Assembly: GCA_027483445.1 (NCBI GenBank)
Contig: JAIXUS010000008.1
Coordinates: forward strand, 1-60,486
Direction: 5' to 3'
Length of the DNA stretch: 60,486 nucleotides
Source: Bacteroidota bacterium
Lineage (GTDB): Bacteria; Bacteroidota; Bacteroidia; M30B66
Shown here: positions 33,779 through 53,880 of the stretch, one piece after another
Layout: every line of letters starts with the position of its first letter
How positions within the stretch are numbered: the first letter of the stretch is position 1
The notes under the pieces: generated by a model
The model's input: the letters and a program-made list of their open reading frames with translations, nothing else
Told to the model about the DNA's origin: nothing
The model's database searches: none
Position numbers and translations under genes: made by a program

Positions 33779-34720
33779 CTATTTTAAGCGATGCATTCTT
33801 TCCATGAGCATTTCTTTATACTTCTCCTTAAACTCATTACTCAGAAAGCTCATGTCAATTAAATCAATCCAATTGGGCAAAGCTTTTTCCATCTTATTGA
33901 AAATGTTTTGCTGTTGCTTTTCTTCTATCTTCAATGTGTTCATTGCAGCCACGAAATCCTGTTTCTTCAGCTTTTTCTTTTTCCCGTTTAAGGTCAAGGC
34001 CATTTCTTCTTCATCGGCCGGATTTACCAACGATGTATTTACCAAATCATAAGCGGGCGATAAGGTCATGCCCAAACCGGGCTGCTCCAGCAATGAAAAA
34101 TTCTTCAAATGCATATCGGCATTGCCCGTGATAAAAGAGAACAGTACCAATTCCCAAAAGTTAACAACATCCAGCCCCGGCATGGCTGAATATTTCAGAA
34201 TGGCTTTACCGATTTGCTCATAGCTGCCATGGTATTTATCTTCTGTGAGCCGTTCAGTTAGCTGACAAAAATCTTCCATAGCCAACTTCCCTTTTGGGGT
34301 TCGGTCAACGCGTTTGGTCAGATATGCCCGATTGCCCGATTGCAGCCGAATGAGGCTATGGGGTGCCGTTTTAATTTTGGCAACAGCGGCGAGGTGCATG
34401 GTAAGATCTTCTACCTCCGGCAGTTGCGGATATAGTGCTGTAGGTGGTTTCAAAATATACCCACCCCACAAACCTACAATGGTAAATCTTCGTTCTGTAC
34501 CTCCATTATTGCTTCCGGTAATGTGTAATGATAGTTTAGCCTGGACACCGGTTACCGCAGTCTGACTTTGTATGATTTCTTTAGCCAAGGGTTCTAAATC
34601 AACTTCTGAGTAGGGTAACACCGGAGGAATTGGTTGCCCGAATACTTTCTTTGAACAGATCGCATGAAAGTCCTGCTCGTTTTCAGCCAATGGCCTATAG
34701 CAGTATAAACATCTCCTCAT
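33779..34720 (-). CDS. hipT: HipA-family kinase toxin (HipT-like)
   Basis: 313 residues, a HipA-type serine/threonine kinase lacking the usual N-terminal subdomain, which is encoded separately just upstream. Visible: a CxxC near the N-terminus (CLYCYRPL), the ATP-loop region GVQAKLSLHI, the catalytic loop FITGNADMHLKNFSLL (D-x-H-x-K-N) and the metal-binding SPAYDLVNT. In known HipBST systems HipT phosphorylates tryptophanyl-tRNA synthetase and HipS neutralises it; E. coli HipA targets glutamyl-tRNA synthetase. The target here is unknown. The ATG overlaps the hipS stop by one base. Confidence 0.88.
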   Translation of the reverse strand: MRRCLYCYRPLAENEQDFHAICSKKVFGQPIPPVLPYSEVDLEPLAKEIIQSQTAVTGVQAKLSLHITGSNNGGTERRFTIVGLWGGYILKPPTALYPQLPEVEDLTMHLAAVAKIKTAPHSLIRLQSGNRAYLTKRVDRTPKGKLAMEDFCQLTERLTEDKYHGSYEQIGKAILKYSAMPGLDVVNFWELVLFSFITGNADMHLKNFSLLEQPGLGMTLSPAYDLVNTSLVNPADEEEMALTLNGKKKKLKKQDFVAAMNTLKIEEKQQQNIFNKMEKALPNWIDLIDMSFLSNEFKEKYKEMLMERMHRLK

Positions 34721-35049
34721 CAGTTATCCTCCTCTTTTATTTCTTGTACACTTACAGCTCCTATGCAATCTTTACAACAGGCCAGTAATAAACCCATTCG
34801 GTCTCGCGGGTTGAGTTTCCAATTTTTTTCGGCGATATCCAACAACCAGCCTTCGGGTATCAGTCCATCAAAAAACGGAAACAAGACCTTAGCGTTGAAA
34901 GCGGCTTCCTGGATGGGCAAGGTTAAACTCACCGGACGTGCATTGGGCTGTGCTGCATACGCTTTGTCGTACACAAAATGATACCCTTGCTCATCCTGAC
35001 TGAGCCAGCCGACCAATCGGTCATCTATTTTTATCGCGGCTTTTCGCAT
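34720..35049 (-). CDS. hipS: HipS-like protein (separate HipA N-terminal subdomain)
   Basis: 109 residues matching the N-terminal subdomain 1 of HipA: VGWLSQDEQGYHFVYD, RPVSLTLP and FFDGLIPEGWLLD. In HipBST operons this small protein, not HipB, acts as the antitoxin for the kinase. It lies between hipB and hipT and is translationally coupled to hipT. Alternatively it could simply be a split HipA whose two halves reassociate. Confidence 0.85.
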   Translation of the reverse strand: MRKAAIKIDDRLVGWLSQDEQGYHFVYDKAYAAQPNARPVSLTLPIQEAAFNAKVLFPFFDGLIPEGWLLDIAEKNWKLNPRDRMGLLLACCKDCIGAVSVQEIKEEDN

Positions 35050-35774: not shown

Positions 35775-38150
35775 CTACGCTTTAATTCCAAATTTCTTCA
35801 ACTTATCAATTGCAGTTTGCGTTGCCTGAAGTCGTTTCAGGTCAATTGTTTCCCTACGTTTCAGTTTTTGAATAACTGTCTTCAAAACGCTAATTTCGTT
35901 GAAGCTTAATGTGTTGGTCTGCTCTCCAAGATCGAGTATTTGCTTCCAGTTATCATCAGTTAAACGGCTTAAGCGGTTATAAAGTGTAGATGGGTCAATT
36001 AACTCTTTGTCATCCAGCTTACTCAGAGCTGTAATTTTTTCAAAATCTATTCCTTTTTCAGTAATCAGATCAACAATCTCAACACCTCTCTGAACGAGAT
36101 TATCCGTCATTGTACCATATTCTTTCAGTGTTTTACGAATCATTGAGACATTCGTTTCTTGGTATTTTGAGAGGATTACTGAATTCAGGTTATACAGGTA
36201 TAAACCATCCCAGAATCGAATACCAAGGGAAGTTATCTTTTGCAATGCATCGTATTTATGTACTTGTTCTGTATCGACTTTCTCTGCGTCATATCTTGCC
36301 TTAAATGCAGCATCTGAAATTAGATATTTTTTAATTATCTCAAAATTCATTGGATGATTTGATTGAGCCGTTAGCAAGGTCCAAGTTTTTTCTGCCTTTG
36401 CTGCCTCGCTAATGAGTGCAACATCTAAATTATTTAGAAAATCATAAACGAATTTTAATCCTTTTTTTAATTCTATTTGGAGTTCTTCAGGCACAGCCTG
36501 AGTGGACCAAATCTGCTCAAGATTTAGCCGATTTCCGGTTAAAAAGTGTAGGTAGGATAGCGTGTACGCAACTGTTTGAGATTTAATGTTGGTATCTCCG
36601 ATTGGTTCATGGTTTTTTCTACCAAAAAGGTTATCAGCGGCTTGAAATAATATTGCATTCGCCACAATATCCTGCCAGTAGACACGATCCGGTTTTTTCT
36701 TTTTGAAATCCTTTTCAATATCTTTCAAAAATTGAGTGTAATTTTTTTGAGCCCCTTTCGCAACATGAAATGGCTGTTGATGCCACGTGTTCATGTACTT
36801 CGCAATTTCTGACTTGATGATAACTTGATTTCGCGGAAATTTTAATTTAAAAGCCTCCTGCTTGCTTTTTGTAGGCTCTTTGTTTAAGGCTTCCTTATAC
36901 TGCCCCTGAACTCTCTCAAGGAACCATATTGTTTGTTTATTAGGATCAGCTGGATCAATGGCGTATGTAGTTCTTGACAATTCTTCGAGACGCTGCAAGA
37001 AGGGGTTGTTTGAAGTCAAGTCAAGTTCAGATACCTTGTTTTGACTATTGGCATACCTAGAAATGAATGGAACCGTTTGATTCTTCTTGTCTTCATCTTT
37101 AATCACCGTAAGTTTCATTTGAACAAAGACTTGCGACAAATCGGCTTTAAACTTTTTCTCGGTATGAAATAAAGAGGCTGTAGTCTGCCCCCCGTTTACA
37201 ATCTGAAAATCCTTCACTGCTGTAATAACGAGTTGGCCGTCCTCCCGTTTTCCCGTTTTAACTGCCTGCGCTGTAGTAGCAAGACCATTGTTGTATGGAA
37301 GAAACATATATGGTTCTTCCCTGATTGTATCACGGATACCTTTATTTATTTTTCCAGTTTGTTGAAGGAATGCCCTTACATTACTTTCCAATAACCTTGT
37401 GCCGTAATTCCTATATAAAGTGGAAAGAACACTCCCTGGCACTATTGCCAAGTAGCATTCATACAAGTCATTTTGAGATGGCATTGCAAGGCAAGGGATA
37501 ACCTCACCAAGTGTTTCTGTGAAATCTATTTCAATAGGTTCCCTGTTGTACTTTGATTGGGCTAACCTTTTTAGCCTCTCTGCATCCCAAACGTGATATA
37601 TGAATGTGACATTGTCTAAGCCTTTGAGAGTATAATTTTTTGGCGGATCATGTGAAATGCTGCCATTTGATAGAATAAAAATATTAATGCGATCAATTTC
37701 TTTATAGTTATCTTTTATCAATTTAGCTAAGCCATACGCTTCCGTAGAAGGTTCAATGTCTTCAAGGTGACCTTTGAACGCAGCATTGAGAAAGGAGGTC
37801 GGCCACTTCAGTAGTTTCTCAAAATCGGGTTTGCTAACCCGGTATAGTCGATTGGTATCTTGATAATGAGTAATAAAAATGTGAAGTGTTTCGTATCCTT
37901 CTTCAATACCATAACCATTGATTTTAAATTGAATATTCTCAAGCTTATTTTCCTTTATATACGGACATAATCTAATACTTTCTGTTTCTCCAGCTTCTGC
38001 CAATAGTTCCATTACATATTCAGTAAACTTATTCTCTTTGGAGGCTCCATCATCATCAGCATATACCAATGAATTAACCTCATGATATAGCTCCTGAAGA
38101 TATTGTTCCAGTTCAAAGTCGGTATTTATTGTTGAAATTGGCTGGTTCAT
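35775..38150 (-). CDS. AIPR-family protein (abortive infection phage resistance)
   Basis: 791 residues. The AIPR domain occupies roughly residues 210-560, with RLLESNVRAFLQ (252-263), PYNNGL (285-290) and IVNGGQTTASLFH (318-330) as conserved blocks; an N-terminal domain with a VYADDDGASKENKFTEYV start resembles those of other AIPR proteins, and the C-terminus is helical. AIPR is named from a lactococcal abortive infection protein and recurs in defence operons; its activity is unproven. Last gene of the operon; it overlaps the nuclease gene stop by four bases. Confidence 0.88.
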   Translation of the reverse strand: MNQPISTINTDFELEQYLQELYHEVNSLVYADDDGASKENKFTEYVMELLAEAGETESIRLCPYIKENKLENIQFKINGYGIEEGYETLHIFITHYQDTNRLYRVSKPDFEKLLKWPTSFLNAAFKGHLEDIEPSTEAYGLAKLIKDNYKEIDRINIFILSNGSISHDPPKNYTLKGLDNVTFIYHVWDAERLKRLAQSKYNREPIEIDFTETLGEVIPCLAMPSQNDLYECYLAIVPGSVLSTLYRNYGTRLLESNVRAFLQQTGKINKGIRDTIREEPYMFLPYNNGLATTAQAVKTGKREDGQLVITAVKDFQIVNGGQTTASLFHTEKKFKADLSQVFVQMKLTVIKDEDKKNQTVPFISRYANSQNKVSELDLTSNNPFLQRLEELSRTTYAIDPADPNKQTIWFLERVQGQYKEALNKEPTKSKQEAFKLKFPRNQVIIKSEIAKYMNTWHQQPFHVAKGAQKNYTQFLKDIEKDFKKKKPDRVYWQDIVANAILFQAADNLFGRKNHEPIGDTNIKSQTVAYTLSYLHFLTGNRLNLEQIWSTQAVPEELQIELKKGLKFVYDFLNNLDVALISEAAKAEKTWTLLTAQSNHPMNFEIIKKYLISDAAFKARYDAEKVDTEQVHKYDALQKITSLGIRFWDGLYLYNLNSVILSKYQETNVSMIRKTLKEYGTMTDNLVQRGVEIVDLITEKGIDFEKITALSKLDDKELIDPSTLYNRLSRLTDDNWKQILDLGEQTNTLSFNEISVLKTVIQKLKRRETIDLKRLQATQTAIDKLKKFGIKA

Positions 38151-39130
38151 AATATTGTTTTTATCACGTTTTCCGTTAGAACATCAAATGAGTTGCAGGC
38201 TGAAATGTCAATCTGATATTTTACATTATAGATGGCATCACTAATCAGGTGCTCTTTCAAAATTAAGGGAAAGCCTTCCTCTATGCGAAAGTACCTTTGG
38301 TTGTTAACTGAATAACTAATCTCATTGTAATTTTCAATCATATCATTACTCAATCCAACACGTTCAAGTCTGGTTTCAAATTCCTGTAGCAATTCAAAGT
38401 CATGAACAATAAGATCTTTAATTTCTTTTATGATGCCCGCAAGTGAATTCTGATTACCTGTTGTTTCAGTTACTAAAATAAGTCCAAGAAAAAGGTTGTT
38501 CCAAGAAGTAAAATCAAGCTGTTGTTCATTAGATATGTGAACCGAGGGGTTACTTGCTTTGGATGTTTTTATCTCAACTGCGTTTCGGTTTCTTGCGAAG
38601 TCCTGATTTGCGCTCTCAGCACCCCTCCAAGAAAGCATAGCCTCTCTAAACTTGGTGGTAGAAAGCAAGAGTTGCCTTAGGAAAAACAATTCACCAAATA
38701 AACCTCGTTGTTTTTCGGTGGATAATAATTCGCCTGTTGCTTTTGAAAATAACTTTTTCCAATAATTTACTCTTTGGTTGATTAATGTCAGAGCCTCGTG
38801 GTTCTCTGATATAGAATGGAGTTTTTCAACGATGTCCTCGATGAACATTGTAAAAATATCAGTCAAATCTTTTTCAAGGAGAATAATAGTGAATTCAGTT
38901 TTTGTTTGGTTAAATGGGATTGCTTGTATTTCAACACCTCTAAACTTGCGCAAGAAGTTTTTACTTAAAGAGGTGTTTGAGTCAAGCTCCAGTTGAAACA
39001 TTCTTGCGCCTGTTGCACCAATTAGCCCAATAAAACAATTAAGCCCAAGAATAGATTCAATTCGTGTTTTTACTACATCTTTTTTGGATGAAGACTCTTG
39101 ATCCAACCAAATTTTTTTTAAATCAATCAT
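38147..39130 (-). CDS. PD-(D/E)XK nuclease-like protein (DUF4420)
   Basis: 327 residues from the ATG at 39128-39130, overlapping the Z1 gene by eight bases; a second ATG three codons earlier is possible. The middle carries RGLFGELFFLRQLL (conserved Glu), WRGAESANQDFARN (Asp) and AVEIKTSKA (E-x-K), the active-site layout of PD-(D/E)XK restriction-like endonucleases. In the predicted MORC-Z1 restriction systems this is the DNA-cutting subunit. The C-terminal third is variable. Cutting specificity would depend on the methyltransferase and partner proteins. Confidence 0.88.
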   Translation of the reverse strand: MIDLKKIWLDQESSSKKDVVKTRIESILGLNCFIGLIGATGARMFQLELDSNTSLSKNFLRKFRGVEIQAIPFNQTKTEFTIILLEKDLTDIFTMFIEDIVEKLHSISENHEALTLINQRVNYWKKLFSKATGELLSTEKQRGLFGELFFLRQLLLSTTKFREAMLSWRGAESANQDFARNRNAVEIKTSKASNPSVHISNEQQLDFTSWNNLFLGLILVTETTGNQNSLAGIIKEIKDLIVHDFELLQEFETRLERVGLSNDMIENYNEISYSVNNQRYFRIEEGFPLILKEHLISDAIYNVKYQIDISACNSFDVLTENVIKTIL

Positions 39131-41945
39131 TAACGTCATCGTGGTCGTCACTTTGTTGTGGTTCTTCTTCTGCGTCAGAGTTTTTCGGAGGCCTTGCAGC
39201 ATATTCAAATTTCACCTCATTTTCCAGTTCAGGAAAAATTATTCCAAAGCCCAATAAGGGAGTGTCATGATTTAATCTTGACGAAACTCTTGGGTCTAAA
39301 GGCATAAAAACTAAAAGGGGTGTTCCTTTTGCTTTTCTCAGCTTCTTTATTTCTAACTCATCTGTATTAACATCGGCATCAAGATCAACAATTCGCGACG
39401 CTTTATCCAATATGGCATTTGAAGAACCTTTTGTTGCAAGTTCATTTTGACCCTCCTTCAAGTCTCGAAAAGCAACGCCTGAATTTTTAAATGATTCGTC
39501 TATTGATGATAAATCAGTTCTGAATGTTGGTAATCCGTGCAAACGATGATTTACTTCTTTTCTTGTGTTTTTTTCTTTTTTAGAGCTTTTGACTGTGCTA
39601 CTAGAAGTGAGTCTAAGTGATACTGACCAATTCTGGAAGACTCCTGATTGGTTCTGTCTTTCAATATAGTCCCTTATGATATCGAGTCGTATTCTATTAC
39701 TTGTAAGCTTGTAGGAATCAAGGAAGGCTAGAATTATGTCGCTACTTACGTTTTCCCAAAGCACCGTGCTTTTACCAAGGCTTTTTCCGAGTTTTAATTT
39801 TTTTAATGTTTCATGTAATAAATTGAAATTATGATCAACGCTAACTTGATTATTATCAAACTCGAACGTTTGTTTTACATCACCTGAAAATGAAAGTTGA
39901 ATTTTCTCATGATCTCTCATTTTAGTTAGCGAAGTTATTGTCAACATTCCTGAGTGTGTTCTCACTTTTAACTGAAAATCTTCTGGTCGCATATCTTTTG
40001 CGGCCAATTCATCAAAATCGGCTCTCATTTCTTCTGTAGCCATGGTTACATGGCGATACCACCCAACTAGATCCTCGGTAGTATATAATCTGCACAGGTC
40101 AATATAGCCAGGTCTGTAACCAAACCATCTGCCCATTTGCATAAGTGAATCATACATTCGAGTTGTTCGCAAATAATAGCTGACCGACAATCCTTCTAGG
40201 GTAATTCCTCGGGCAAGTTTATTTCCACCAACAGCAATAACCGAGAGGTTTGTACCTGCATCTTCATACTTTTTATAATTGATTTCTTCAATGTTGTGGT
40301 ATTCCAGATTTCTTGTATTGTTGGTTCCATGTACAGCACGGACTTCTATTTTATTAACCGCATTAGTTAATTCGGATTTTACCTGATCCCACGAATACGT
40401 TTTGATCTTCGGATCTCTATATGACAGGTTTTCAAGCACATTCTCAGTGGTTACAATAAAATCGTTTTTGTAAAGGTTTTCCAGATCCAAAAGAATGCTT
40501 CCTTGCCCTGATTTGATCTGCCTTTTGTAATCTCTTAGAACTTCATTGACTATCCATGCAATTCGGTCGATCCAGGCTACCCTCAGGGCAACATGAATCA
40601 ACATTGAGTTGTGTTTTTTTTCATGGCCTCTTAAACGCCTTACCGTGCAGGTGAGAATAAAGGACTTTATTGATTCTTTAAGTGATCTTGGGATATCATC
40701 CGGAAGGAGATCTCTATTTTCCCGGTTTATTGTTTTAGGGAACCAGGGTTCCTGATCTTCCGCAGGCCTGATAATATCCAACCCTTCAAATGTTTCATTG
40801 GTTTTTTCATTCTCAAAACCAAAAACTTGAGCAGCACCAATGTAATTGGATGGCGGTGGAATATTAATAATGAAGTCTCGTGGAAACAGATCTTCACCAA
40901 CTTTTAGAGTCACATCCTTAACCATTGTTTCGAGTTCTTCGCTCCATGTTGAAGGAATGAAGAGATTTGCGTAAGGTGTTGCTGTGTAGCCAATGAAGGT
41001 ATTCTGATTAAATAAGTTAAGCAATGTCCTTATGAGGCGGTTAATTGTCCTTACATCTATTTCTGTTCCTGAATTGACTGATGCATTGTCGGCTTCATCA
41101 TCAATTACAAGCACCGGTACATTGTGAATCTTTCTGTTCCCTGAAGAGTCATCCACGGCGAACTGATTTAGCCAGAGAATCAGGTTTTCCAAGACACTCT
41201 TGTTCTTTTTTATCACAAGAACTGTTGGGCTGTTACCACCGATTGGTACATTTAAACGTGTTGCAATACCTCTGTTAAAATCGCCTTTGTCATCAGAAGA
41301 AGTGTAAGAATAAATTTCTGTATCGACTTTGTATTCCCCAACTCCTATTTTATTGTTTTTATGCCTCAATATAAAATCCGCGCTATTTCGGCCTATGTAA
41401 CCCTCGTCAATTCTAACTTGGGTCTGGGACCGTAATGTATTGTGCACTCCAGCAATAACAATTATCAGTTTATAACCAGCATCTGTAGCTTTGTTGATCA
41501 GTCCAGTATAGTTTGCTGTTTTGCCAGACTGAACATTACCGACAACCATGCCGCGACGATCCCATCTTCCCTGAGTTTTAGGGTTAACACACTTGTCAAG
41601 TATTTTATTCGTCAAGTCATCCAGATTGTCTATCGGAAAAGAACCATCCTTTGTTTTGAGCCAAGATCGGTATCTTTTCCAAAGCTGCCATGGATAATTG
41701 CCTGGGATATCGTGTAACCAAGGTTTTACATCTGCGTTGACCAATTGAGTTGCTTGCCCTTGAAAAACCTCAAAGTCATATTCCAATTGTTCAATCAGGT
41801 CGATTAAATCAACATTAGGGTACTGCTGTTTTATTAAAGGGTTTTCAGCTACAGCTCTAATATCGTCAGAGTCGATTTCACGTATTCTCTTAATATCTCC
41901 TAAGAATATATGGCAGACATTACGAGCGCTTTCTAATTCTTTCAT
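39123..41945 (-). CDS. Z1-domain superfamily II helicase
   Basis: 940 residues. Walker A GNVQSGKT (136-143), Walker B LVIDDEADNASV (DDEAD at 282-286), motif III-like FIGYTATPYANLF (about 320), and motifs V/VI in GGNKLARGITLEGLSVSYYLR and MQMGRWFGYRPGY (about 600-640), with the Z1 domain between. A DNA-dependent ATPase that presumably translocates or opens DNA for the associated nuclease. Starts one base inside the MORC gene stop (TAATG) and overlaps the nuclease gene. A charged C-terminal tail (DAEEEPQQSDDHDDVND) is notable. Confidence 0.92.
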   Translation of the reverse strand: MKELESARNVCHIFLGDIKRIREIDSDDIRAVAENPLIKQQYPNVDLIDLIEQLEYDFEVFQGQATQLVNADVKPWLHDIPGNYPWQLWKRYRSWLKTKDGSFPIDNLDDLTNKILDKCVNPKTQGRWDRRGMVVGNVQSGKTANYTGLINKATDAGYKLIIVIAGVHNTLRSQTQVRIDEGYIGRNSADFILRHKNNKIGVGEYKVDTEIYSYTSSDDKGDFNRGIATRLNVPIGGNSPTVLVIKKNKSVLENLILWLNQFAVDDSSGNRKIHNVPVLVIDDEADNASVNSGTEIDVRTINRLIRTLLNLFNQNTFIGYTATPYANLFIPSTWSEELETMVKDVTLKVGEDLFPRDFIINIPPPSNYIGAAQVFGFENEKTNETFEGLDIIRPAEDQEPWFPKTINRENRDLLPDDIPRSLKESIKSFILTCTVRRLRGHEKKHNSMLIHVALRVAWIDRIAWIVNEVLRDYKRQIKSGQGSILLDLENLYKNDFIVTTENVLENLSYRDPKIKTYSWDQVKSELTNAVNKIEVRAVHGTNNTRNLEYHNIEEINYKKYEDAGTNLSVIAVGGNKLARGITLEGLSVSYYLRTTRMYDSLMQMGRWFGYRPGYIDLCRLYTTEDLVGWYRHVTMATEEMRADFDELAAKDMRPEDFQLKVRTHSGMLTITSLTKMRDHEKIQLSFSGDVKQTFEFDNNQVSVDHNFNLLHETLKKLKLGKSLGKSTVLWENVSSDIILAFLDSYKLTSNRIRLDIIRDYIERQNQSGVFQNWSVSLRLTSSSTVKSSKKEKNTRKEVNHRLHGLPTFRTDLSSIDESFKNSGVAFRDLKEGQNELATKGSSNAILDKASRIVDLDADVNTDELEIKKLRKAKGTPLLVFMPLDPRVSSRLNHDTPLLGFGIIFPELENEVKFEYAARPPKNSDAEEEPQQSDDHDDVND

Positions 41946-43420
41946 TATTCAAAGTACTCAATTAGTTGTGTATACTGGTTGAAGGGTTCGATGTTGAAAA
42001 TCTGTTTTATGGCCAGTTCGCGATCCAGACCACTTGATTTAAGTGAACGGTACATCATTTTGGCTAGTTCAATTGTACCAGAATCGGGTTCAGCTTGGTT
42101 CTGTCTAAGTTCATGACTATCTGGTTCTTCACTATGAAATTGAATAATAGACTCAACAGGCGTAGTCTCTCCAATCAATTTAAGTGCTGTTCGAAATTCA
42201 GAAGCAGATATAGATTCTTTATCTAGAAGACTTTTAATAACTGCATGTTCTTCATTGATGTAATAATGCCGCACATCATCACGGGTCTTTCTTGCCTTCC
42301 AGACAGGTTGAAATTCAAAACTTGTTATAGAATCATCAAGCATGATTTGATTTCCTCTGAACCGGTGAACTGCTCCAGCTGCTTTTCTTGTCATCTTTCC
42401 GAGACGAACGAGATCCTTTCTAACTGTAAGTGAAGGTGTAGCTGTAGCTTTCTTGATGTCGATTTTCCAATCGTGATCCAAAGTGTTGGGAATATCAACT
42501 AAAATTCTGGCGTTTTTGAAATGTTCATTCTTAGGAAACAGACCAAGCCAGTCACCATATAGCAACAATCGGCTGTTACGATAAATGTAGAAGCCTTGAA
42601 AACGATACCAATCATCGGCTTTTGCACTTTTACGCTCCTCTGGATTCAGCTTGGATATGTGAGGCAAAACGTAACATTTTACTTTTACCTGATTACGGTC
42701 CAGATCCTCTTGCGCGATTAGTTGTCCTCCATCAGCTTCTTTCATAAAAGGGTCCCATGGTGTCAACTTATTCCCATTCACACAAATAGTCAACTTCTTT
42801 TTTTCCAGATAGCGATGAAAGACTAAACTGAGGTGATCCTCCACTTTTTCAAACTCTTCGAGAAAGACGATTCTTGCCGCTTCATTTTTAATGTTGGCAT
42901 TACCGACTAATCTGTCTAACTTTTCCCATAAGACCGTGGTACCATGATCGAGCTTTTCCAAAGGCTCCTGAAATACTCCGTCGGATAAATAATCGAGCAG
43001 ATTCCACTTACCTGTTTCGTTTACAAAATCTAAATCCCAATGTCTCTTAATAACATTATGATCTTTTTTCCTTGATAGAACGGTAAGTGCTTTACATTGA
43101 GAAAATGATGAGGTTTTTAATCCAAGCCCGAATCTACCCAAATCATGTTCTTCACGATCGTCTTTAGGATCTTTACTGCCCGGAGTCATGGCTTCAATCA
43201 ACTCGTTACGATTCATTCCTTCACCATCATCAGTTATGGAAACCCATGATTTTTCACCAGCCCATTCATACTGTATCCAGACATTATTTGCCCGTGCAGA
43301 AATGCTGTTGTCGATTATATCCGCAATAGCTGTTTGCAGATTGTAACCGAATGCCCTGAAAGTGTTAATCATGGCTCTGGCTTTGGGCGGAGTTTCTTCA
43401 GCTATTTTTTGCATATACAT
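41945..43420 (-). CDS. MORC/MutL-type GHKL ATPase
   Basis: 491 residues. ATP-binding GHKL motifs: N-box AIADIIDNS (34-39), G1 DDGEGM (64-69), G2 LGRFGLGLKTSS (94-105) and HGTTVLW (about 165). After the ATPase the S5-like domain contains DHDWKIDIKKATATPS with the conserved Lys. Bacterial members of this group were identified as the precursors of eukaryotic MORC proteins and sit in predicted restriction-modification operons with Z1 helicase, nuclease and methylase. Likely a DNA clamp/loop-forming ATPase. A 139-base gap separates it from the KaiC-like gene; it is coupled to Z1. Confidence 0.92.
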   Translation of the reverse strand: MYMQKIAEETPPKARAMINTFRAFGYNLQTAIADIIDNSISARANNVWIQYEWAGEKSWVSITDDGEGMNRNELIEAMTPGSKDPKDDREEHDLGRFGLGLKTSSFSQCKALTVLSRKKDHNVIKRHWDLDFVNETGKWNLLDYLSDGVFQEPLEKLDHGTTVLWEKLDRLVGNANIKNEAARIVFLEEFEKVEDHLSLVFHRYLEKKKLTICVNGNKLTPWDPFMKEADGGQLIAQEDLDRNQVKVKCYVLPHISKLNPEERKSAKADDWYRFQGFYIYRNSRLLLYGDWLGLFPKNEHFKNARILVDIPNTLDHDWKIDIKKATATPSLTVRKDLVRLGKMTRKAAGAVHRFRGNQIMLDDSITSFEFQPVWKARKTRDDVRHYYINEEHAVIKSLLDKESISASEFRTALKLIGETTPVESIIQFHSEEPDSHELRQNQAEPDSGTIELAKMMYRSLKSSGLDRELAIKQIFNIEPFNQYTQLIEYFE

Positions 43421-43559
43421 TTATTAATTAACATTCAGTCAAAGAAGCGACGGAAAAAGCTCAAAAAACTTTCCTTATCGAATGTTATTCGAGGTTCTTT
43501 AAGGCAATAATTATTTTCTAAACTTTTAACATACACAAAAAAACTAAGGTGTTTATGGA
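43421..43559 (-). promoter_or_regulatory. Intra-operon gap with inverted repeat, possible internal promoter
   Basis: The only sizeable gap in the eight-gene operon. It contains TCGAAT-GTT-ATTCGA (43478-43492) and an AT-rich stretch with a TAnnTTTTTTG-like word near 43541-43552 on the minus strand. It could hold a second promoter for MORC-Z1-nuclease-AIPR. Evidence is weak. Confidence 0.35.
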
Positions 43560-46040
43560 TTATACTTCTTCGTAAATCGTTAAATCTTGCCTATTCCATC
43601 TTAATAAACCATTTGGAGGATTTTGTCTTGAGCTTCTTACAGAAATTAAATATTCGCGATTGTTCTTTTGTTTATTTAATCTGTCTTCCTCTAACATTAA
43701 AAAATAATCTGCTGCTCTAACAATTCCATGTAGAAATGGTTTTTGCGCGGTTTGATATAGCATAAAATCCTGTGGTGTTTGGAGCTGAGAACCTGATTCT
43801 TTATTATCTAAATCAATTAATGATATATTGGTGAATGTTGTCACTACAGTAACAGAATACCGTTTTAAAATGCTGTATAAAAGCGGCCAAATCATGTCAG
43901 ATTCTTGTAACTTTTTAAACTGTAAAAATACATTGTGTAATCCATCAAGTAAAACTCCAGTGAAAGGCTCTCCTTCCAGAGAGGCCTCTTCTAATAATCT
44001 AACAATTTTATTTACAAAGTCTTCAGCAGTGAGGAAACCAGGATAAAAGGACTGCACTTTTATCATACTATTCCGCGGATAATACCCTTGAAAAGTGTTT
44101 ATGAATTGTCGATCAAGACGGTCTTTTAATACTTGATAGTAGTCTTCAGGATATAAAAAAGATAGAATGAGGACTTTACGAAGTTTTTGAGATTTAAGCT
44201 GTATCTTATTTTTAGTGAAACTCTTTATTCTTATATCGACTAAAGATTCTTTATCTATAATTGGTGTTAAAAGGAGTTTAAGACCAAACCCTGCCTTGCC
44301 AGAACTGCCATGGCCGTGCACTAATATTTGAGAATTGCAAGCCACAGGAAGAAAAGGCTTGTATATAACTATGTTTCCATCATGCTGAATATCCAATGTA
44401 TGAATGAAGTCGATATTTGATGGGAGATTTATTCTTATTCTCTCCCTCTTATCGAGTTGCGATGGAACTTGCGGACTAAGACGAAATCCATTACTACTGG
44501 AAAGGTGGAATACATGCGCTCCCTGCCGCGAAATCTGGTGCCGCGTTTTTAGTAACTGAAAAACACGAATGGGCTTTTCATATTTGTTGTCTATCCCTTC
44601 TTGCTTTAATTGTATTGCGACGTCAACCAAATAATCCAACTTAAACTTCCCAGGAATTTCTTCTGCAGCAATAAGAACAACCAATGCTCCCATATTCCTG
44701 CATTGCTCAATAAATTTCTCTATTTCATCATACAAAATATCTTTATTGAACAATTCATTGACATTATCAATTACCAATAGTAGTGGACATGTTGCTGGTA
44801 TCTGAGACAGCACAGCAGCATCATTAGCAACTTGATTTTTTATATCTTTTTGAAGGGTTTTTAGAACATCTGTGATTTGGGTTATGGTTAAACTCTCATA
44901 AAACTTTAATGCCTTGAACCATGCTAATTGATGATCATTAGCTTTGCCTAATTTGAGATTATTTCTATTATTCTCAAAGACCCTCATTTTTCTCAAATAG
45001 TCGGGCACCAAACTGTTAAGACGAGTTTGTAAATCTTCTGGATTTTCTTCAAGACTTATGTATAGCGTTTTTGTTCCTAAAGGTTCTAAAACAGCAGCAA
45101 GTGAGAGAGCCGCAGAGGTCTTACCAGTGCCAGGCTGCCCATGTAAGCTAAAAACAAGGCCATTAGTTGACGTTCTTTTCAGTCCTCCGAAGAATAAAAG
45201 ATCCGCACCTCGCCATGGAACAGGGATACCGAAAATCCAGTTGTTAATCTCTGCTGAGTCTGGGAGCTCTGTATACAAGCTGGAAACCCTGAAACTATAC
45301 TTTTCAGTGGATGAGTTGTTGCTGTATCGGTCTGACAGTTCCTGCCTACTTGTGCTATTGGGTTGACAAAAAAACTCAAGATGATTTTCATTCTTAAACC
45401 ATAAATAAGCAAAACCTTTAACTGCCAAAATATGTCCGGTTAAATAATTTATCCTTGAGGTAACCGTTCTTGGGTTGACATTCTTTCTAATATCCGGCCA
45501 TCTTGCATAAATATCAATGTTACTTTTAAATGAACTAATCGCTTTTTGTATGTCTTCTTCTGAAAATTCATCCATGTAAGGTGATATGGATTTCAATTCA
45601 GGGTGTCGAAAATGCAATTTAAGGAAATGGAAGAGCATTCCTCTACAAAGCACGAAGGAGTATGAAGCTGTTTGTGGTTCCTCTGGGACAGTAAGGGCAT
45701 GATACAGTATGTGAAGTGGTGAAGGTAGAACATCACTCGATTTCTCATTGTTTCTAACTCGATTAAACGCATGAATTACTAGCTTTACAATTCTTGGAAA
45801 TTCATTTAATTTTCTCCTTCTTGTTGCACTTGTCGTTAATCCCTTGATAATATGGCCATCAAGGCCACTTGCACTAATTGATTTTACTTTTATATATCTT
45901 TCAAAGATACCACTTAAGTTTTCATCGTCTTCTCTAAGTTCTTTTCCAGATTTGTGCTGAATGTGGCAATACCACAGCGCCTTGTGAATGGCAGTAACCA
46001 AATCATCAAACAATTCAATGTATGGCAGTGAATTTTTCAT
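43560..46040 (-). CDS. KaiC-like tandem RecA-fold ATPase, unrecognised family
   Basis: 826 residues. An N-terminal helical domain (about 1-250) is followed by a RecA/KaiC-type ATPase: Walker A GQPGTGKT (301-308), TLYISLEENPEDLQTRL as in KaiC, Walker B CPLLLVIDNVNELF (about 418-431) and a KaiC-like closing segment IRVFQLLKTRHQ... (491-525). A second RecA-like domain has a degenerate P-loop GHGSSGKA (576-583) and Walker B-like FTGVLLDGLHNV (693-704). Tandem KaiC-like domains are known in KaiC itself and in archaeal signalling ATPases. Within this operon it sits between two unknown proteins and MORC. Role inferred only as ATP-dependent oligomeric switch or sensor. Confidence 0.82.
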   Translation of the reverse strand: MKNSLPYIELFDDLVTAIHKALWYCHIQHKSGKELREDDENLSGIFERYIKVKSISASGLDGHIIKGLTTSATRRRKLNEFPRIVKLVIHAFNRVRNNEKSSDVLPSPLHILYHALTVPEEPQTASYSFVLCRGMLFHFLKLHFRHPELKSISPYMDEFSEEDIQKAISSFKSNIDIYARWPDIRKNVNPRTVTSRINYLTGHILAVKGFAYLWFKNENHLEFFCQPNSTSRQELSDRYSNNSSTEKYSFRVSSLYTELPDSAEINNWIFGIPVPWRGADLLFFGGLKRTSTNGLVFSLHGQPGTGKTSAALSLAAVLEPLGTKTLYISLEENPEDLQTRLNSLVPDYLRKMRVFENNRNNLKLGKANDHQLAWFKALKFYESLTITQITDVLKTLQKDIKNQVANDAAVLSQIPATCPLLLVIDNVNELFNKDILYDEIEKFIEQCRNMGALVVLIAAEEIPGKFKLDYLVDVAIQLKQEGIDNKYEKPIRVFQLLKTRHQISRQGAHVFHLSSSNGFRLSPQVPSQLDKRERIRINLPSNIDFIHTLDIQHDGNIVIYKPFLPVACNSQILVHGHGSSGKAGFGLKLLLTPIIDKESLVDIRIKSFTKNKIQLKSQKLRKVLILSFLYPEDYYQVLKDRLDRQFINTFQGYYPRNSMIKVQSFYPGFLTAEDFVNKIVRLLEEASLEGEPFTGVLLDGLHNVFLQFKKLQESDMIWPLLYSILKRYSVTVVTTFTNISLIDLDNKESGSQLQTPQDFMLYQTAQKPFLHGIVRAADYFLMLEEDRLNKQKNNREYLISVRSSRQNPPNGLLRWNRQDLTIYEEV

Positions 46041-46045
46041 CTTTG

Positions 46046-46813
46046 TTACATTAAAACATGACTTGGCGATATAATAGGTAGTTTATCGCTAAAGGTTGAG
46101 AGGTGTGGTGAATTTTTGAAATCTTTTGATTCGTGAATTTGTGAATTTAAATCCAACTCTGCATTTACTGCAACAAGCTGCTTTAATTTAAACTCCAATA
46201 TTGCCTTAACGTCTTCATAATTTAAAATCAAAGGAAGTAGCTCCAAGCTCAGCCGTCTAAATAATTTAGGATCTGATTTTTCAGTCCAAATCAAAATCAA
46301 TTCAGTAAGTGCAGATATATCAGGCATAAATCCTTCTTTAAGTTTGTAGATCACAAAATCAAAAACATAATAATCTTTATCCACAGGTGCATATAGTGCT
46401 GCGAATGTCCATGGGTCATTGGTTTTAAGATAGGCAAGACCAATGTTGATAGTATCAGGCTTTACAAGTTCAGGAGCTTCTCTTAATACACAACGGATAA
46501 GTTCTTCCTTTTGGTAAATGTTTAATTTAACATTACCATTCTCCAACAATGAAATACTATCTTGTGCAAGTTGCTTACTATTTAGGCCAGCGCGACGTGC
46601 ATACTCAAAAAGCCTAGTTATGTTTGATGCATCATATTCGGCTATTTGATTCAGAATATCAAGAACCGTTTGCATTTCAACAATTCTATCTTGCATGGCT
46701 CGAGAGTTTCGATAAAAATCAGCCCGTCTATCCAAGTCACTCAGTCCGTTAACATCATGTAGGCCTGGATTCATGATCAAATTTTCTAGTTCTTTTCTGC
46801 CTTGTGCTTTCAT
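46046..46813 (-). CDS. Unrecognised helical protein, 255 aa
   Basis: No signal peptide or membrane segment. It is predicted mostly alpha-helical, with repeated hydrophobic-acidic helices (VEMQTVLDILNQIAEYD, ALTELILIWTEKSDPKLF, YEDVKAILEFKLKQLV) that resemble HEAT/ARM-like or adaptor proteins. No catalytic motif. Its start overlaps the stop of the 275-aa gene by four bases and its stop is five bases from the KaiC-like gene, so the three are made together and probably form a complex. Function unknown. Confidence 0.75.
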   Translation of the reverse strand: MKAQGRKELENLIMNPGLHDVNGLSDLDRRADFYRNSRAMQDRIVEMQTVLDILNQIAEYDASNITRLFEYARRAGLNSKQLAQDSISLLENGNVKLNIYQKEELIRCVLREAPELVKPDTINIGLAYLKTNDPWTFAALYAPVDKDYYVFDFVIYKLKEGFMPDISALTELILIWTEKSDPKLFRRLSLELLPLILNYEDVKAILEFKLKQLVAVNAELDLNSQIHESKDFKNSPHLSTFSDKLPIISPSHVLM

Positions 46814-47637
46814 TTTCCCTCTTTTTGAATAATGTCAATCTGCACTATGGATTTGTATAGATTTGGAGTATGCACGTATTCCTCAAGTCCATTCTGTTCT
46901 TCGCACTCCTGTAATGGCTTGGTCATTCCCCCAGGCTTGAATTGGGGGTAAAACTCAGCATCGAAAATTGTTGGTTTTGTAACCTTATGGCAATGCTTAA
47001 TATTATGTGAGTATAGGACTTTGTCTAGATCTTGATTTTCGGACAGTCCCGCGCGGCAATCCAAGGAGTTTTTTGAACTATTTGAAAAAACATCCTCTGT
47101 TTCATTACTTGGATAACTCCATTCAATATATGAACCTGTTTGAGCCTCTCCTAACTCAGGTTGCAGACCCGCAGGTAAAGCTGGCTTACCCAAATAGTAG
47201 TTAGCTTTATCAGGTTTATGCAGAATATCCTCTTTAATTGGTTCTGATAAAATTGCTTTGTAAAGCGCATTTCTGACCTTGATTGGTATATCTGGTTTTA
47301 ATAACTCTTTAACTCTTCTGGAAACGTCCCTTTTAGTGATTTCATTAATCCGTCCCTTAAAACGATTTACATCGTTTATTCTAATAAACAACGTAGCGCT
47401 TCCGCAATAATCTGAGCCAACTTGTTTTAGCATTCGAATGAATTCAAGGGAATATTCCAAAACTTCTTGACTTGAAGATGAAAACTGGCTGAGATATTGC
47501 AGGAACTGCATTTTTATGTTATTGTCTAACTGTTCATCGCTCTCAAAATTTTTCACAAATTCGGGTTTAACTTTTTTCAATTCAAGATAGCCTTTATTAT
47601 CCTTCATATTTTTGAACATGTTTAGAAAAAAGAGCAT
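46810..47637 (-). CDS. Unrecognised protein, 275 aa
   Basis: The first ATG (47635-47637) is 18 bases after the methyltransferase stop; internal ATGs at residues 7 and 11 are alternatives. The N-terminal half has a KGYLELKKVKPEFVKNF start and basic helices (NRFKGRINEITKRDVSRRVKEL); the C-terminal half is proline/aspartate-rich with scattered Cys and His (CRAGLSE, HNIKHCHKV, LQECEE) and ends in a beta strand (SIVQIDIIQKEG). I do not recognise a family. Fixed position between methyltransferase and KaiC-like ATPase suggests a structural or target-recognition role; this is inference. Confidence 0.72.
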   Translation of the reverse strand: MLFFLNMFKNMKDNKGYLELKKVKPEFVKNFESDEQLDNNIKMQFLQYLSQFSSSSQEVLEYSLEFIRMLKQVGSDYCGSATLFIRINDVNRFKGRINEITKRDVSRRVKELLKPDIPIKVRNALYKAILSEPIKEDILHKPDKANYYLGKPALPAGLQPELGEAQTGSYIEWSYPSNETEDVFSNSSKNSLDCRAGLSENQDLDKVLYSHNIKHCHKVTKPTIFDAEFYPQFKPGGMTKPLQECEEQNGLEEYVHTPNLYKSIVQIDIIQKEGK

Positions 47638-47655: not shown

Positions 47656-49248
47656 TCATTTTGGATTGATTACTTCAAAAACAATTTCACCAAGCAACTT
47701 TGCTAAATATGGAGGCACAGCGTTTCCAACTTGATGATACTGTGCGGTACGTGATCCACAAAATAAATAATTATCTGGAAATGTCTGTATTCTAGCCGCC
47801 TCACGAACGGAGAGACTACGACATTGTTCAGGGTCATAATGGATAAAATAATGTCCATCTTTTGCAATGTGACTTGTAACGGTAGTGGCAGGTTGGTCTG
47901 GGACTTGAACCCTGAATCTGTCTGAAAACTTCCCGGATTTTGCATTTACATGATCAGGCATTAATTCACTACTATGCAACTCAAACTCGTGTAATCTAGG
48001 AAACCGTTTATATTTTCTTGTGTAAAGACTTGAAAACATATATCGTTTCAAATCCTCAACAAGGTGTGAACGTGATTCATGGTTTGCTGCTCCTTTCATT
48101 TTTGGATCGTGATACCAACTGAACATCGGGTTCTCTTTGGAAGGAGTCTCGCAGGGGACAAACTCAGATCCAGTACCATTTGGTGGTGGAGAAATCCGTG
48201 TCTGAGGGCACTTTTTCTTTAATCCGTTCAAGTATTCAATTTCATTTCTGAATGAATTTATAATCTCAGACCAATTCTCATCAGTATCTTTTACATTCCG
48301 GTAAAATCGCTTTTTTTTATCATTTGAAATTAGACAACTATCTAGTGATCTGTTTATACCGCTTCTTATTTTGGGTAAATCTCCAATAATTTCCTCGAGT
48401 GTTATATGTTTTTCAGCCTTTTTTAATATTCTTGGTAAAGCTGATATGTCTTCACGGACTCCTAACAAAATAACACGATGTCTTTTTTGCGGAATACCGT
48501 ATTCTTCTGCACGAATAAGATAATCCCTATTATTATTATAAATTGGGTGTTTCTGATCAAACTTAGTGGCTTCGGTTGTAAGCGAAAAAATTTTATACTT
48601 GGGACACTTGCCTCTTTTAAACAATTTCGAAGGATTCTGAAGATCTCTTTTTATCAGATCAAACATTTTTTCACCATCTAAAACTGAAGAGAGTAATCCT
48701 TTTACATTTTCCATAACAAAGACCGCAGGATGATGCTTAGCGATAATTCTTAAGTATTCTTTGTAGAGGTACACCCTTTTGTCTCCATTGTCAAGTCTAT
48801 CTCCCCATTGTCTTCGTGAACGTCCGACAATGGAATATGCTTGGCATGGGGGGCCTCCGATTAAAACCCAATTCGTTGAGTGATTCAAAGCTTTTTTAAT
48901 TCTATAATCTACAAGCTCCGGAGGAAAATCTTTGTGCCCTAGTTCTGCGCACCATGCCTCTTCTTTTGCTTTTTTTGCTTGTGATGCATATTTCTCATAC
49001 AACTCTACTCGCAACCTTTTCTTAAGCTCTGAATCGGTTTGCATGACCATGTCGTAGTATTCGCTAGGCACTTGGTTGATAGGGAATTTTCTAAAAAAGC
49101 TCCTTAGTTCAAGAGTTTTGTGTGCGTTAATCTCCATTTCGATGGAAAGTCGAATATCAAAAACTCTTTTATTTCGTCTAACAACTGAAGAAAATCCTTC
49201 TCCAAGGCCTCCAGGTCCAGCAAATATGTCAATTACAGGAATCCCCAT
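47656..49248 (-). CDS. C5-cytosine DNA methyltransferase
   Basis: 530 residues. Transfers methyl from AdoMet to cytosine C5 in DNA. Motif I DIFAGPGGLGEGF (7-19), motif IV GGPPCQAYSIVG with catalytic Cys135, motif VI FVMENVKG (178-184), motif VIII QKRHRVILLG (about 257), a target-recognition region (about 290-450) and motifs IX/X in RSLSVREAARIQTFPDNY and YHQVGNAVPP. An insertion of about 60 charged residues lies between motifs I and IV. First gene of the operon; presumably protects host DNA from the DUF4420 nuclease. Recognition sequence unknown. Confidence 0.95.
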   Translation of the reverse strand: MGIPVIDIFAGPGGLGEGFSSVVRRNKRVFDIRLSIEMEINAHKTLELRSFFRKFPINQVPSEYYDMVMQTDSELKKRLRVELYEKYASQAKKAKEEAWCAELGHKDFPPELVDYRIKKALNHSTNWVLIGGPPCQAYSIVGRSRRQWGDRLDNGDKRVYLYKEYLRIIAKHHPAVFVMENVKGLLSSVLDGEKMFDLIKRDLQNPSKLFKRGKCPKYKIFSLTTEATKFDQKHPIYNNNRDYLIRAEEYGIPQKRHRVILLGVREDISALPRILKKAEKHITLEEIIGDLPKIRSGINRSLDSCLISNDKKKRFYRNVKDTDENWSEIINSFRNEIEYLNGLKKKCPQTRISPPPNGTGSEFVPCETPSKENPMFSWYHDPKMKGAANHESRSHLVEDLKRYMFSSLYTRKYKRFPRLHEFELHSSELMPDHVNAKSGKFSDRFRVQVPDQPATTVTSHIAKDGHYFIHYDPEQCRSLSVREAARIQTFPDNYLFCGSRTAQYHQVGNAVPPYLAKLLGEIVFEVINPK

Positions 49249-52410: not shown

Positions 52411-53880
52411 TTATTTAGCATATTGTCCTTTTTTAAAATTTTCAGCAGGACTTGTCTTGTCAACATAAATTATCCCATCAAATAGTTCATAAAGGTTAGT
52501 TGTCCAAAGAGCTGATTTTTCGTTGATGTAAACTGCTCCTGCTTCATAATGCTCGTATTCTCTATTTACAAAATCTTCTAACTTTTTGTCACTTGAAATT
52601 TCTTTTAAGTCAACAAAGAATATTGGTGTTTCTAATTTTGAAAATGTATTTGTCAAGTAACTTTTGGGGTGAGGTTTTACAAAATTATCGGAAACAAGCC
52701 AAAGTTCGTCTTGAAAAAGACTTTTTCCAAAGCTGTACATTAAGTAAAAAATATTCGTAGAACTAGGACTTTGAGCAACAAAACCGCCTTCGCTAAAACT
52801 AAAACCTATATTATAGTATTTATCTTTGTAAATATCTTTCAAATGTGTTCCCATCCAATTACCTGACTTGAAGTCGTCTGAAAAACTACCTTTCCCGATA
52901 TGACCATTATGAGCCCAGAGCATTATTTTTGCATCGTTGTTAATGTCTCTAATCCATTTAATGTTTTCAGCCATTGATTTGTCCCGGAAATTATAAGCAG
53001 TATCAAAATCTTTATTTCTAAAATAACTTAATTTTTGTCCAAGCACTTTCATTGATTGTTGAGCGAATATATAATCATATTGGTTTTGAGATTTCAAAAA
53101 ATCTTCCCGACTGGTAACAAATGCTTCCAGTTTTTTTAGTTTGTCTTGATTTTCTTTTTGAAGCTTTTCTAAGCCAATATCATCTAACTCTTTCAATTTA
53201 TTGGCGTCATTATCAAATTTTGCAGGCAATAAACTTTTATCAAAATTTGGAATTGATTTAGAAAGATATCTTTCAAGCCAAGCAATTTCCGATGTCGCAC
53301 TTTGCATGTCGTAACCATAAAATTGAGTTTGTGCTTCCTTCGGTTTTCCTATATTGTAATTTCTCATCCATTCAATCAGGTCTAAAACTTCTTGTGATTG
53401 CCAAACCCAATACCCATTTTTTGATAATGCTTCTTTTGCATTTCCTTCCCCATAAATTACATATTTATTTATGTCATAACAAGCTCCAAAATTAGCTTCT
53501 ATGCCAAATAGCTTTACATTGTGTTTTACTACTAAATACTTAAATAGTTTTGCTTTTAACTCAAAAAACTCTTTTGTTCCGTGTGTTGCTTCGCCAAGTC
53601 CAATTACTTCGGCATTTTTTATTTTATCATCAAGAAAGGATAATTCCGCTGTGTCAACTTTTGTGGTTGATTGAATTGTGTGAATGAGTGTTTTAAGTTT
53701 GGATAGACTTTGTTCGTCCAATGAAACTTCTTTTTCCTTTTTTGAAAAAATGGAAGTCAAGGTATCGCCAAAAAATGGTTCACCTAAAACAGCCATTGCG
53801 AAAATTCTTGTAATTAAAGTGCCTAACAATAAAATAATTATCACGGAAATTATTAGTCTTTTCTTTGTTTTGGGTTTCAT
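52411..53880 (-). CDS. Erythromycin-esterase family protein
   Basis: 489 residues with an N-terminal transmembrane anchor or signal (RLIISVIIILLLGTLITRIFAMAVLG). The erythromycin-esterase domain shows EVIGLGEATHGTKEFFELKA (conserved Glu and general-base His), LFGIEANFGACYDINKYV, GYWVWQSQEVLDLIEWMRNYN, FYGYDMQS and IMLWAHNGHIGKG. Relatives include macrolide esterases EreA/EreB and many proteins of other or unknown function; resistance cannot be assumed. AT-rich and flanked by attC-like repeats D and E, so probably acquired as a cassette. Confidence 0.87.
   Translation of the reverse strand: MKPKTKKRLIISVIIILLLGTLITRIFAMAVLGEPFFGDTLTSIFSKKEKEVSLDEQSLSKLKTLIHTIQSTTKVDTAELSFLDDKIKNAEVIGLGEATHGTKEFFELKAKLFKYLVVKHNVKLFGIEANFGACYDINKYVIYGEGNAKEALSKNGYWVWQSQEVLDLIEWMRNYNIGKPKEAQTQFYGYDMQSATSEIAWLERYLSKSIPNFDKSLLPAKFDNDANKLKELDDIGLEKLQKENQDKLKKLEAFVTSREDFLKSQNQYDYIFAQQSMKVLGQKLSYFRNKDFDTAYNFRDKSMAENIKWIRDINNDAKIMLWAHNGHIGKGSFSDDFKSGNWMGTHLKDIYKDKYYNIGFSFSEGGFVAQSPSSTNIFYLMYSFGKSLFQDELWLVSDNFVKPHPKSYLTNTFSKLETPIFFVDLKEISSDKKLEDFVNREYEHYEAGAVYINEKSALWTTNLYELFDGIIYVDKTSPAENFKKGQYAK

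Follow-up and report, generated by a model that had tools for sequence, protein, structure and literature searches.

The window, by which we mean the whole stretch of 60,486 nucleotides analysed here, carries an operon on the minus strand that is transcribed in the order methyltransferase, ORF275, ORF255, KaiC-like gene, MORC, Z1, DUF4420 and AIPR. Its components are as follows.

47656..49248, minus strand: C5-cytosine DNA methyltransferase, 530 aa (PF00145, E = 1.6e-46; TIGR00675 above cut-off)
46810..47637, minus strand: ORF275, an orphan protein; 18 bp 3′ of the methyltransferase gene, with a 4-bp overlap with ORF255
46046..46813, minus strand: ORF255, an orphan protein, predicted to be all-helical (repeat-like); the KaiC-like gene follows after 5 bp
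43560..46040, minus strand: KaiC-like protein, 826 aa, with a predicted helical N-terminal region (1–264), domain 1 (265–530) and a putative degenerate domain 2 (540–826)
43421..43559, minus strand: 139-bp gap separating the KaiC-like gene from MORC, which may hold a promoter for the MORC-Z1-nuclease-AIPR genes
41945..43420, minus strand: MORC-type GHKL ATPase, MzaB-like, 491 aa (PF13589; NF041932, 402.6 bits, cut-off 850)
39123..41945, minus strand: Z1-domain SF2-type ATPase, MzaC-like, 940 aa (PF10593, E = 1e-77; NF041933, 610.6 bits, cut-off 1500)
38147..39208, minus strand: DUF4420 PD-(D/E)XK nuclease-like protein, MzaD-like, start codon uncertain (PF14390, E = 2.3e-62; NF041934, 115.4 bits, cut-off 420)
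35775..38150, minus strand: AIPR protein, MzaE-like, 791 aa (PF10592, E = 2.2e-89; NF041935, 391.4 bits, cut-off 1050)

The core genes MORC, Z1, DUF4420 and AIPR are named MzaB, C, D and E by the PADLOC library, and with PADLOC and Pfam the combination that marks an MZA system is found here within one operon. The NCBIfam models for MzaB–E match all four core proteins, each below its equivalog cut-off, and we therefore call the operon MZA-like rather than a strict MZA operon. The sigma factor MzaA is absent from it, and the slot that lies between the methyltransferase and MORC is occupied by the trio of the KaiC-like gene, ORF255 and ORF275, packed co-directionally with the methyltransferase gene with spacings of 18, −4 and 5 bp. 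The initial annotation had described a KaiC-like gene embedded in a restriction operon, and the co-directional, MZA-like arrangement seen with Pfam, PADLOC and NCBIfam bears this out. HipA-type genes lie directly beyond the operon (33779–35049 of the window), with the HipA N- and C-terminal domains on two separate ORFs, and an erythromycin esterase family protein is encoded upstream of the island at 52411–53880.

The 139-bp gap includes the palindrome TCGAATAACATTCGA at 43478–43492, which could be an operator or a chance occurrence. A promoter scan gave 43 sites against 42.2 in shuffled sequences, which is no excess, and a repeat search around the trio gave nothing readable as transposon ends.

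The KaiC-like ORF comprises 826 codons with an ATG start and no internal stops. Its two P-loops are GQPGTGKT at residues 301–308 (K307) and GHGSSGKA at 576–583 (K582). Domain 1 matches the Pfam KaiC family PF06745 with E = 5.3e-11 and 42.8 bits, above the gathering score of 26.6, over residues 280–520 and profile positions 9–225 of 231. Our reference set was six two-domain KaiC proteins from other genomes, with pooled, CI and CII HMMs. Compared with these six, domain 1 gives an hhalign Prob of 91 (E = 1e-6), and none of 1000 shuffled versions of the domain reached the real score with any of the three HMMs. In the alignment, domain 1 still has K307/T308 of Walker A, E331/E332 as the Glu pair, D425 of Walker B and K498-x-R500, residues whose functional roles we take to be those of their KaiC counterparts; in place of the G and H found after K-x-R in all six KaiC proteins it has H501 and S504. 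The assignment of residues 265–530 as a KaiC-type ATPase domain is well beyond chance at the level of sequence; the canonical, KaiC-style first P-loop that had been read from the DNA stands, and the domain is apparently active as an ATPase.

RecA-superfamily membership could also suit an additional motor or assembly ATPase, working on DNA with MORC, Z1 and the nuclease like its RecA, DnaB or RadA relatives. DnaB-like phage helicases are matched more weakly (PHROG 243, E = 4.4e-7; NCBIfam DnaB, 0.014), and precedent is provided by the Z1-type ATPases of CglI and NgoAVII, which drive cleavage at high ATP cost, restriction by CglI being powered by heavy ATP use (PMC4267653). Yet the best Pfam family is KaiC, matched at full length, with no DnaB, RecA or RadA model among the Pfam matches listed; moreover a Z1 motor is already present, and many of the related operons lack an insert altogether. 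We consider a motor function unlikely.

The second domain matches far less well. Residues 540–826 align in register with KaiC CII, placing GHGSSGKA as P-loop and GVLLDGL at 695–701 as a Walker B-like segment, but on its own the domain gives an hhalign Prob of only 1.5, and 2, 33 and 36 of 1000 shuffles scored at least as high against the pooled, CI and CII HMMs, respectively. In-register placement together with this weak score is what points to a KaiC domain. The earlier proposal of a second RecA-like domain is tentative, its P-loop lying where it was said to be. At KaiC columns the Walker A Thr is replaced by A583, the first Glu by P631 and the K of K-x-R by S800; E632, the second Glu of the pair, and R802, the R of K-x-R, are kept. 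The comparison is no more than suggestive of a KaiC-like second domain with its active site gone. Residues 1–264 gave a single, weak PHROG match (0.0054). A single-sequence model of the protein, made without an alignment, has a mean pLDDT of 34, and the N-terminal region is mostly helical in it at a confidence too low for use.

Could the protein be a circadian or light-clock KaiC? Beyond the family resemblance, the evidence points the other way. The S/T pair of CII, which we take to be its phosphorylation site, is absent, the aligned columns being V774 and R775 in a part where the alignment is uncertain. The NCBIfam KaiC equivalog PRK09302 is not reached (30.7 bits against a cut-off of 408), and we found no KaiA or KaiB partner, the neighbouring ORF255 and ORF275 matching no Pfam family of the KaiA/KaiB kind. 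A clock is therefore disfavoured, to the point of being scarcely credible. Against Pfam as a whole ORF255 has no match, and ORF275 has only weak, unrelated matches. A single-sequence model of ORF255 is helical, with a pLDDT of 60 that is near 75 at residues 141–210 and lower elsewhere; a fold search with it gave PPR-type helical repeats as the best match, at E = 0.079, and nothing at 0.001.

How widespread is the trio? A total of 1,483 genome look-ups from overlapping draws yielded no orthologue of the KaiC-like protein, and neither did the genome-contig, plasmid, phage and viral collections, of which the genome-contig and viral-contig scans detect close relatives only. The look-ups covered 60 relatives, 395 genomes of the phylum and 395 of the class (the genome of origin being counted in all three sets), 20 MZA-bearing genomes, 194 from the order of Algoriphagus, and 200, 111 and 108 from the phyla of three MZA-bearing genomes; the empty result carries no weight for the sets of 20, 194, 111 and 108. 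Besides the genome of origin, four places passed the limits (L046, L047, L128 and L155), each matching only the P-loop stretch, residues 278–343; L047 is RadA-like by eye and L155 is a KaiC-like protein with two P-loops. Searches with ORF255 and ORF275 were empty; among whole genomes they covered the genome of origin, for ORF255 alone. When the three proteins were compared with all ORFs of 100 MORC-Z1 loci, 80 of them the best of at least 591 matches, nothing was found at E ≤ 1, and against the inserted ORFs alone at maximum sensitivity the best E was 0.19. One candidate in the 100 loci was discarded. This was a 243-aa P-loop protein adjoining MORC in L086, the sole match to a KaiC HMM below 1e-3, which is the IstB of an IS21-type element (transposase plus IstB, upstream of MORC at L086:5912-8216) and not a KaiC.

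The trio is therefore known from one instance. A single instance, together with the loss of catalytic residues from domain 2, is what might be expected of a neutral in-frame insertion or a decaying one with no role in defence. We find this very improbable, since the three ORFs are intact, tightly packed and share the codon usage of the operon, and domain 1 retains the catalytic positions that were checked.

To place the trio in context we compiled 100 loci of MORC-Z1 type. Twenty are stretches around MORC matches in class-level relatives, taken from 23 places minus the window itself, G138 and G003, and 80 are the best of at least 591 Z1-alignment matches in genome contigs, so that the sample is biased to relatives of this Z1. 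Removal of the exact duplicates L050 and L074 left 98 distinct loci, among which L122 and L123 overlap in 57% of sampled 31-mers. Slot genes took their labels from a phmmer comparison with a single representative of each kind, itself named by Pfam. In this sample, which includes the best 80 of at least 591 matches, the methyltransferase is directly upstream of MORC with no insert in 40 of 98 loci; methyltransferase, insert and MORC follow one another in 16; 22 have other co-directional genes upstream of MORC; 12 have nothing co-directional within 320 bp of it; and in the remainder MORC lies at the end of the stretch (4), there is no Z1 ORF (3) or no MORC is in view (1).

The occupants of the slot are diverse. 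Again with the best 80 of at least 591 matches in the sample, an ankyrin-sigma70 protein (MzaA) lies immediately upstream of MORC in 14 of 98 loci, the gene run upstream of MORC includes a GHKL protein with a partner in six, and a NOV_C protein is present in four more as well as in one of the GHKL loci. The GHKL proteins of these pairs (L081, L086, L091, L094, L104 and L115) are 706–753 aa long. A receiver (‘RR’) identity for their partners was abandoned, there being no Pfam receiver match among the partners scanned, and a provisional label HTH255 for certain slot proteins was dropped when Pfam identified them as NOV_C. Similar GHKL proteins are found downstream of AIPR in L058 and L067. In Algoriphagus (L049:3602-8508) a 409-aa orphan shares the slot with a 1225-aa protein in which kinase and ORC-CDC6-like domains are recognised. 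Other inserts seen once each are an EndoIII-like gene (L067), a methyltransferase with an HNH gene (L059), two of no known kind (L039, L069) and one that we take, by its sequence, to be Vsr (L072). L061, L064 and L069 are variants in which additional genes lie around MORC and Z1 (a 483–532 aa family and a 174–177 aa protein), and after Z1 neither DUF4420 nor AIPR was recognised in these three. Given that the slots of relatives are empty or hold kinase-NTPase, ankyrin-sigma70, GHKL plus partner or NOV_C genes, we read the slot as variable and the KaiC trio as one of its contents.

The same variability is seen within the genome of origin. It has a second operon of MZA type at L033:519-13113 (G000:C81), in which MORC is preceded by WYL and ankyrin-sigma70 (MzaA-like) genes and the methyltransferase lies downstream in inverted orientation. 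Thus a single genome contains two operons of this type that differ in their slot genes.

We examined the history of the operon using a tree of MORC plus Z1, made from 70 rows, those among 91 usable ones whose slot state was defined, by a quick search under LG+G4 with no mixture model; several rows have long branches flagged by the program. Closest to the window is Cyclobacterium xiamenense L048, whose slot is empty (SH-aLRT 99; 81% identity in MORC-Z1 over 1376 columns). Next outward come Algoriphagus iocasae L049, with the kinase-NTPase slot (SH-aLRT 100), and then L026, empty (97). These belong to a six-row group that includes L025 (empty) and L051 (NOV_C), with support of 100 and four slot states. 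The ankyrin-sigma70 gene requires one change on the tree, while the GHKL pair (6 changes in 6 rows) and NOV_C (4 in 4) scatter as much as shuffled labels. Overall there are 18 changes of slot state against a shuffled mean of 29.3, so inheritance also accounts for part of the pattern. In codon usage the trio correlates closely with the core genes (r = 0.947) and the methyltransferase (0.939), in contrast to the flanking genes of 50–51% G+C (r = 0.524 and 0.288); the G+C content is 36% for the trio and 38% for the core. Since the trio fits the core and is unlike the flanking genes, the operon and trio probably came from elsewhere together.

The position of the trio is an observation, from which we infer its function. 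We judge the chances to be even that the KaiC-like protein, ORF275 and ORF255 make up a cassette that regulates, or senses for, an MZA-type restriction system. Such a role is plausible and gains weight from the variability of the slot, which in related operons is home to modules of a regulator-like kind, the ankyrin-sigma70 MzaA among them. The packing of the trio, the other slot occupants, the empty or kinase-NTPase slots of the nearest operons, the shared codon usage and the different slot of L033 all count in its favour. The initial annotation had suggested a pair of active and inactive domains in a regulatory role; the motifs and the variable slot agree with this, and the KaiC identity of domain 2 remains provisional. 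Phage sensing or gating of MORC-Z1, which it also raised, would be candidate roles, and a hexamer a candidate form. Counting against the cassette, neither partner protein has a recognised domain, no orthologue was found, and 40 of the 98 loci, in a sample with the best 80 of at least 591 matches, have no insert.

Other evidence could favour a separate small defence module or cargo, independent of the restriction machinery and sited there for shared expression. Position is no proof of function, and elsewhere the slot takes genes that look autonomous or auxiliary (the kinase-NTPase with its 409-aa neighbour, HNH with a second methyltransferase, Vsr, IS21), with DNA-repair or restriction genes (Vsr, EndoIII-like, HNH) among its occupants. 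The 139-bp gap parts the trio from the core genes, and the trio is missing from the nearest operon, L048. But the trio has at most weak matches to any effector, toxin or defence family in Pfam, PADLOC and NCBIfam, and no homologues were found elsewhere in the genomes searched. We therefore think an independent module rather unlikely, while still a contender.

For the regulatory cassette, the gene order, the domain 1 match, the motifs kept and lost, the slot variability and the common codon usage are direct observations; on these we build a model that would also specify an oligomer, its partners, a signal and a direction of control. Domain 1 would bind and hydrolyse ATP within a ring or filament. 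The dead domain 2 and the helical N-terminal region would pass the nucleotide state to ORF255 and ORF275, acting as partners, and to MORC or its promoter, for which the 139-bp gap would leave room. The cassette would set when the core set is made or active, so that the MORC-Z1-DUF4420-AIPR machinery would be switched on or licensed under certain conditions only. A machine that is costly and potentially lethal needs control, and Z1-type ATPases are heavy users of ATP in CglI and NgoAVII. More broadly, and more tentatively, MZA-type operons may possess an exchangeable input slot next to MORC, in which a KaiC-type switch with two partners licenses restriction; this would be the first KaiC-type gate in anti-phage defence, and we regard the proposal as possible but somewhat doubtful. 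For restriction systems that contain a component of the suicide type (AIPR), what keeps them silent and later sets them off is largely open. If the slot is an exchangeable input, nature has already swapped it around one core (empty, KaiC-like, kinase-NTPase, ankyrin-sigma70, GHKL plus partner), and the input is thus testable by exchange. A KaiC-type ATPase in this slot would widen the known uses of that family of switches.

In the MZA system (mzaABCDE), reportedly described by Gao et al. 2020 and cited to them in PMC9523054, the gene order is, we take it, MORC, Z1, DUF4420 and AIPR; MORC, Z1, the DUF4420 nuclease and AIPR are common to both operons in the same order. MZA has the ankyrin-sigma70 protein MzaA, whereas the operon of the window lacks it and has the KaiC-like trio and methyltransferase upstream. 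Compared with two-domain KaiC, our protein shares the domain 1 motifs with the full-length Pfam match and a domain 2 in register; it differs in an N-terminal extension of about 260 aa, the degenerate domain 2 and the missing phospho-sites.

In the relevant section of Miller et al. 2022, MzaA is given as a sigma factor, and a putative defence system ‘type II’ comprises Z1, PD-(D/E)XK, cytosine methyltransferase and AIPR, associated with MORC (PMC9523054). All five are found in the window, whose operon fits the type as described there; that section mentions a ‘putative transcriptional regulator’ and does not name a KaiC-type protein. The MORC operons of Iyer et al. 2008 likewise combine MORC, SFII helicase, RE-fold nuclease, DNA methylase and AIPR, and MORC has been proposed to loop DNA in such operons; the word KaiC is absent from that text (PMC2292703). 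No KaiC-type protein in a restriction system was found in searches of the open-licence PMC literature (including PMC5512222), which agrees with the initial annotation, to which none was known. CglI and NgoAVII use a PLD-type nuclease, and the three genes that the abstract names include no MORC, AIPR or KaiC-type protein; what they do have, like the operon described here, is a Z1-type ATPase motor, a separate nuclease and a C5 methyltransferase (PMC4267653).
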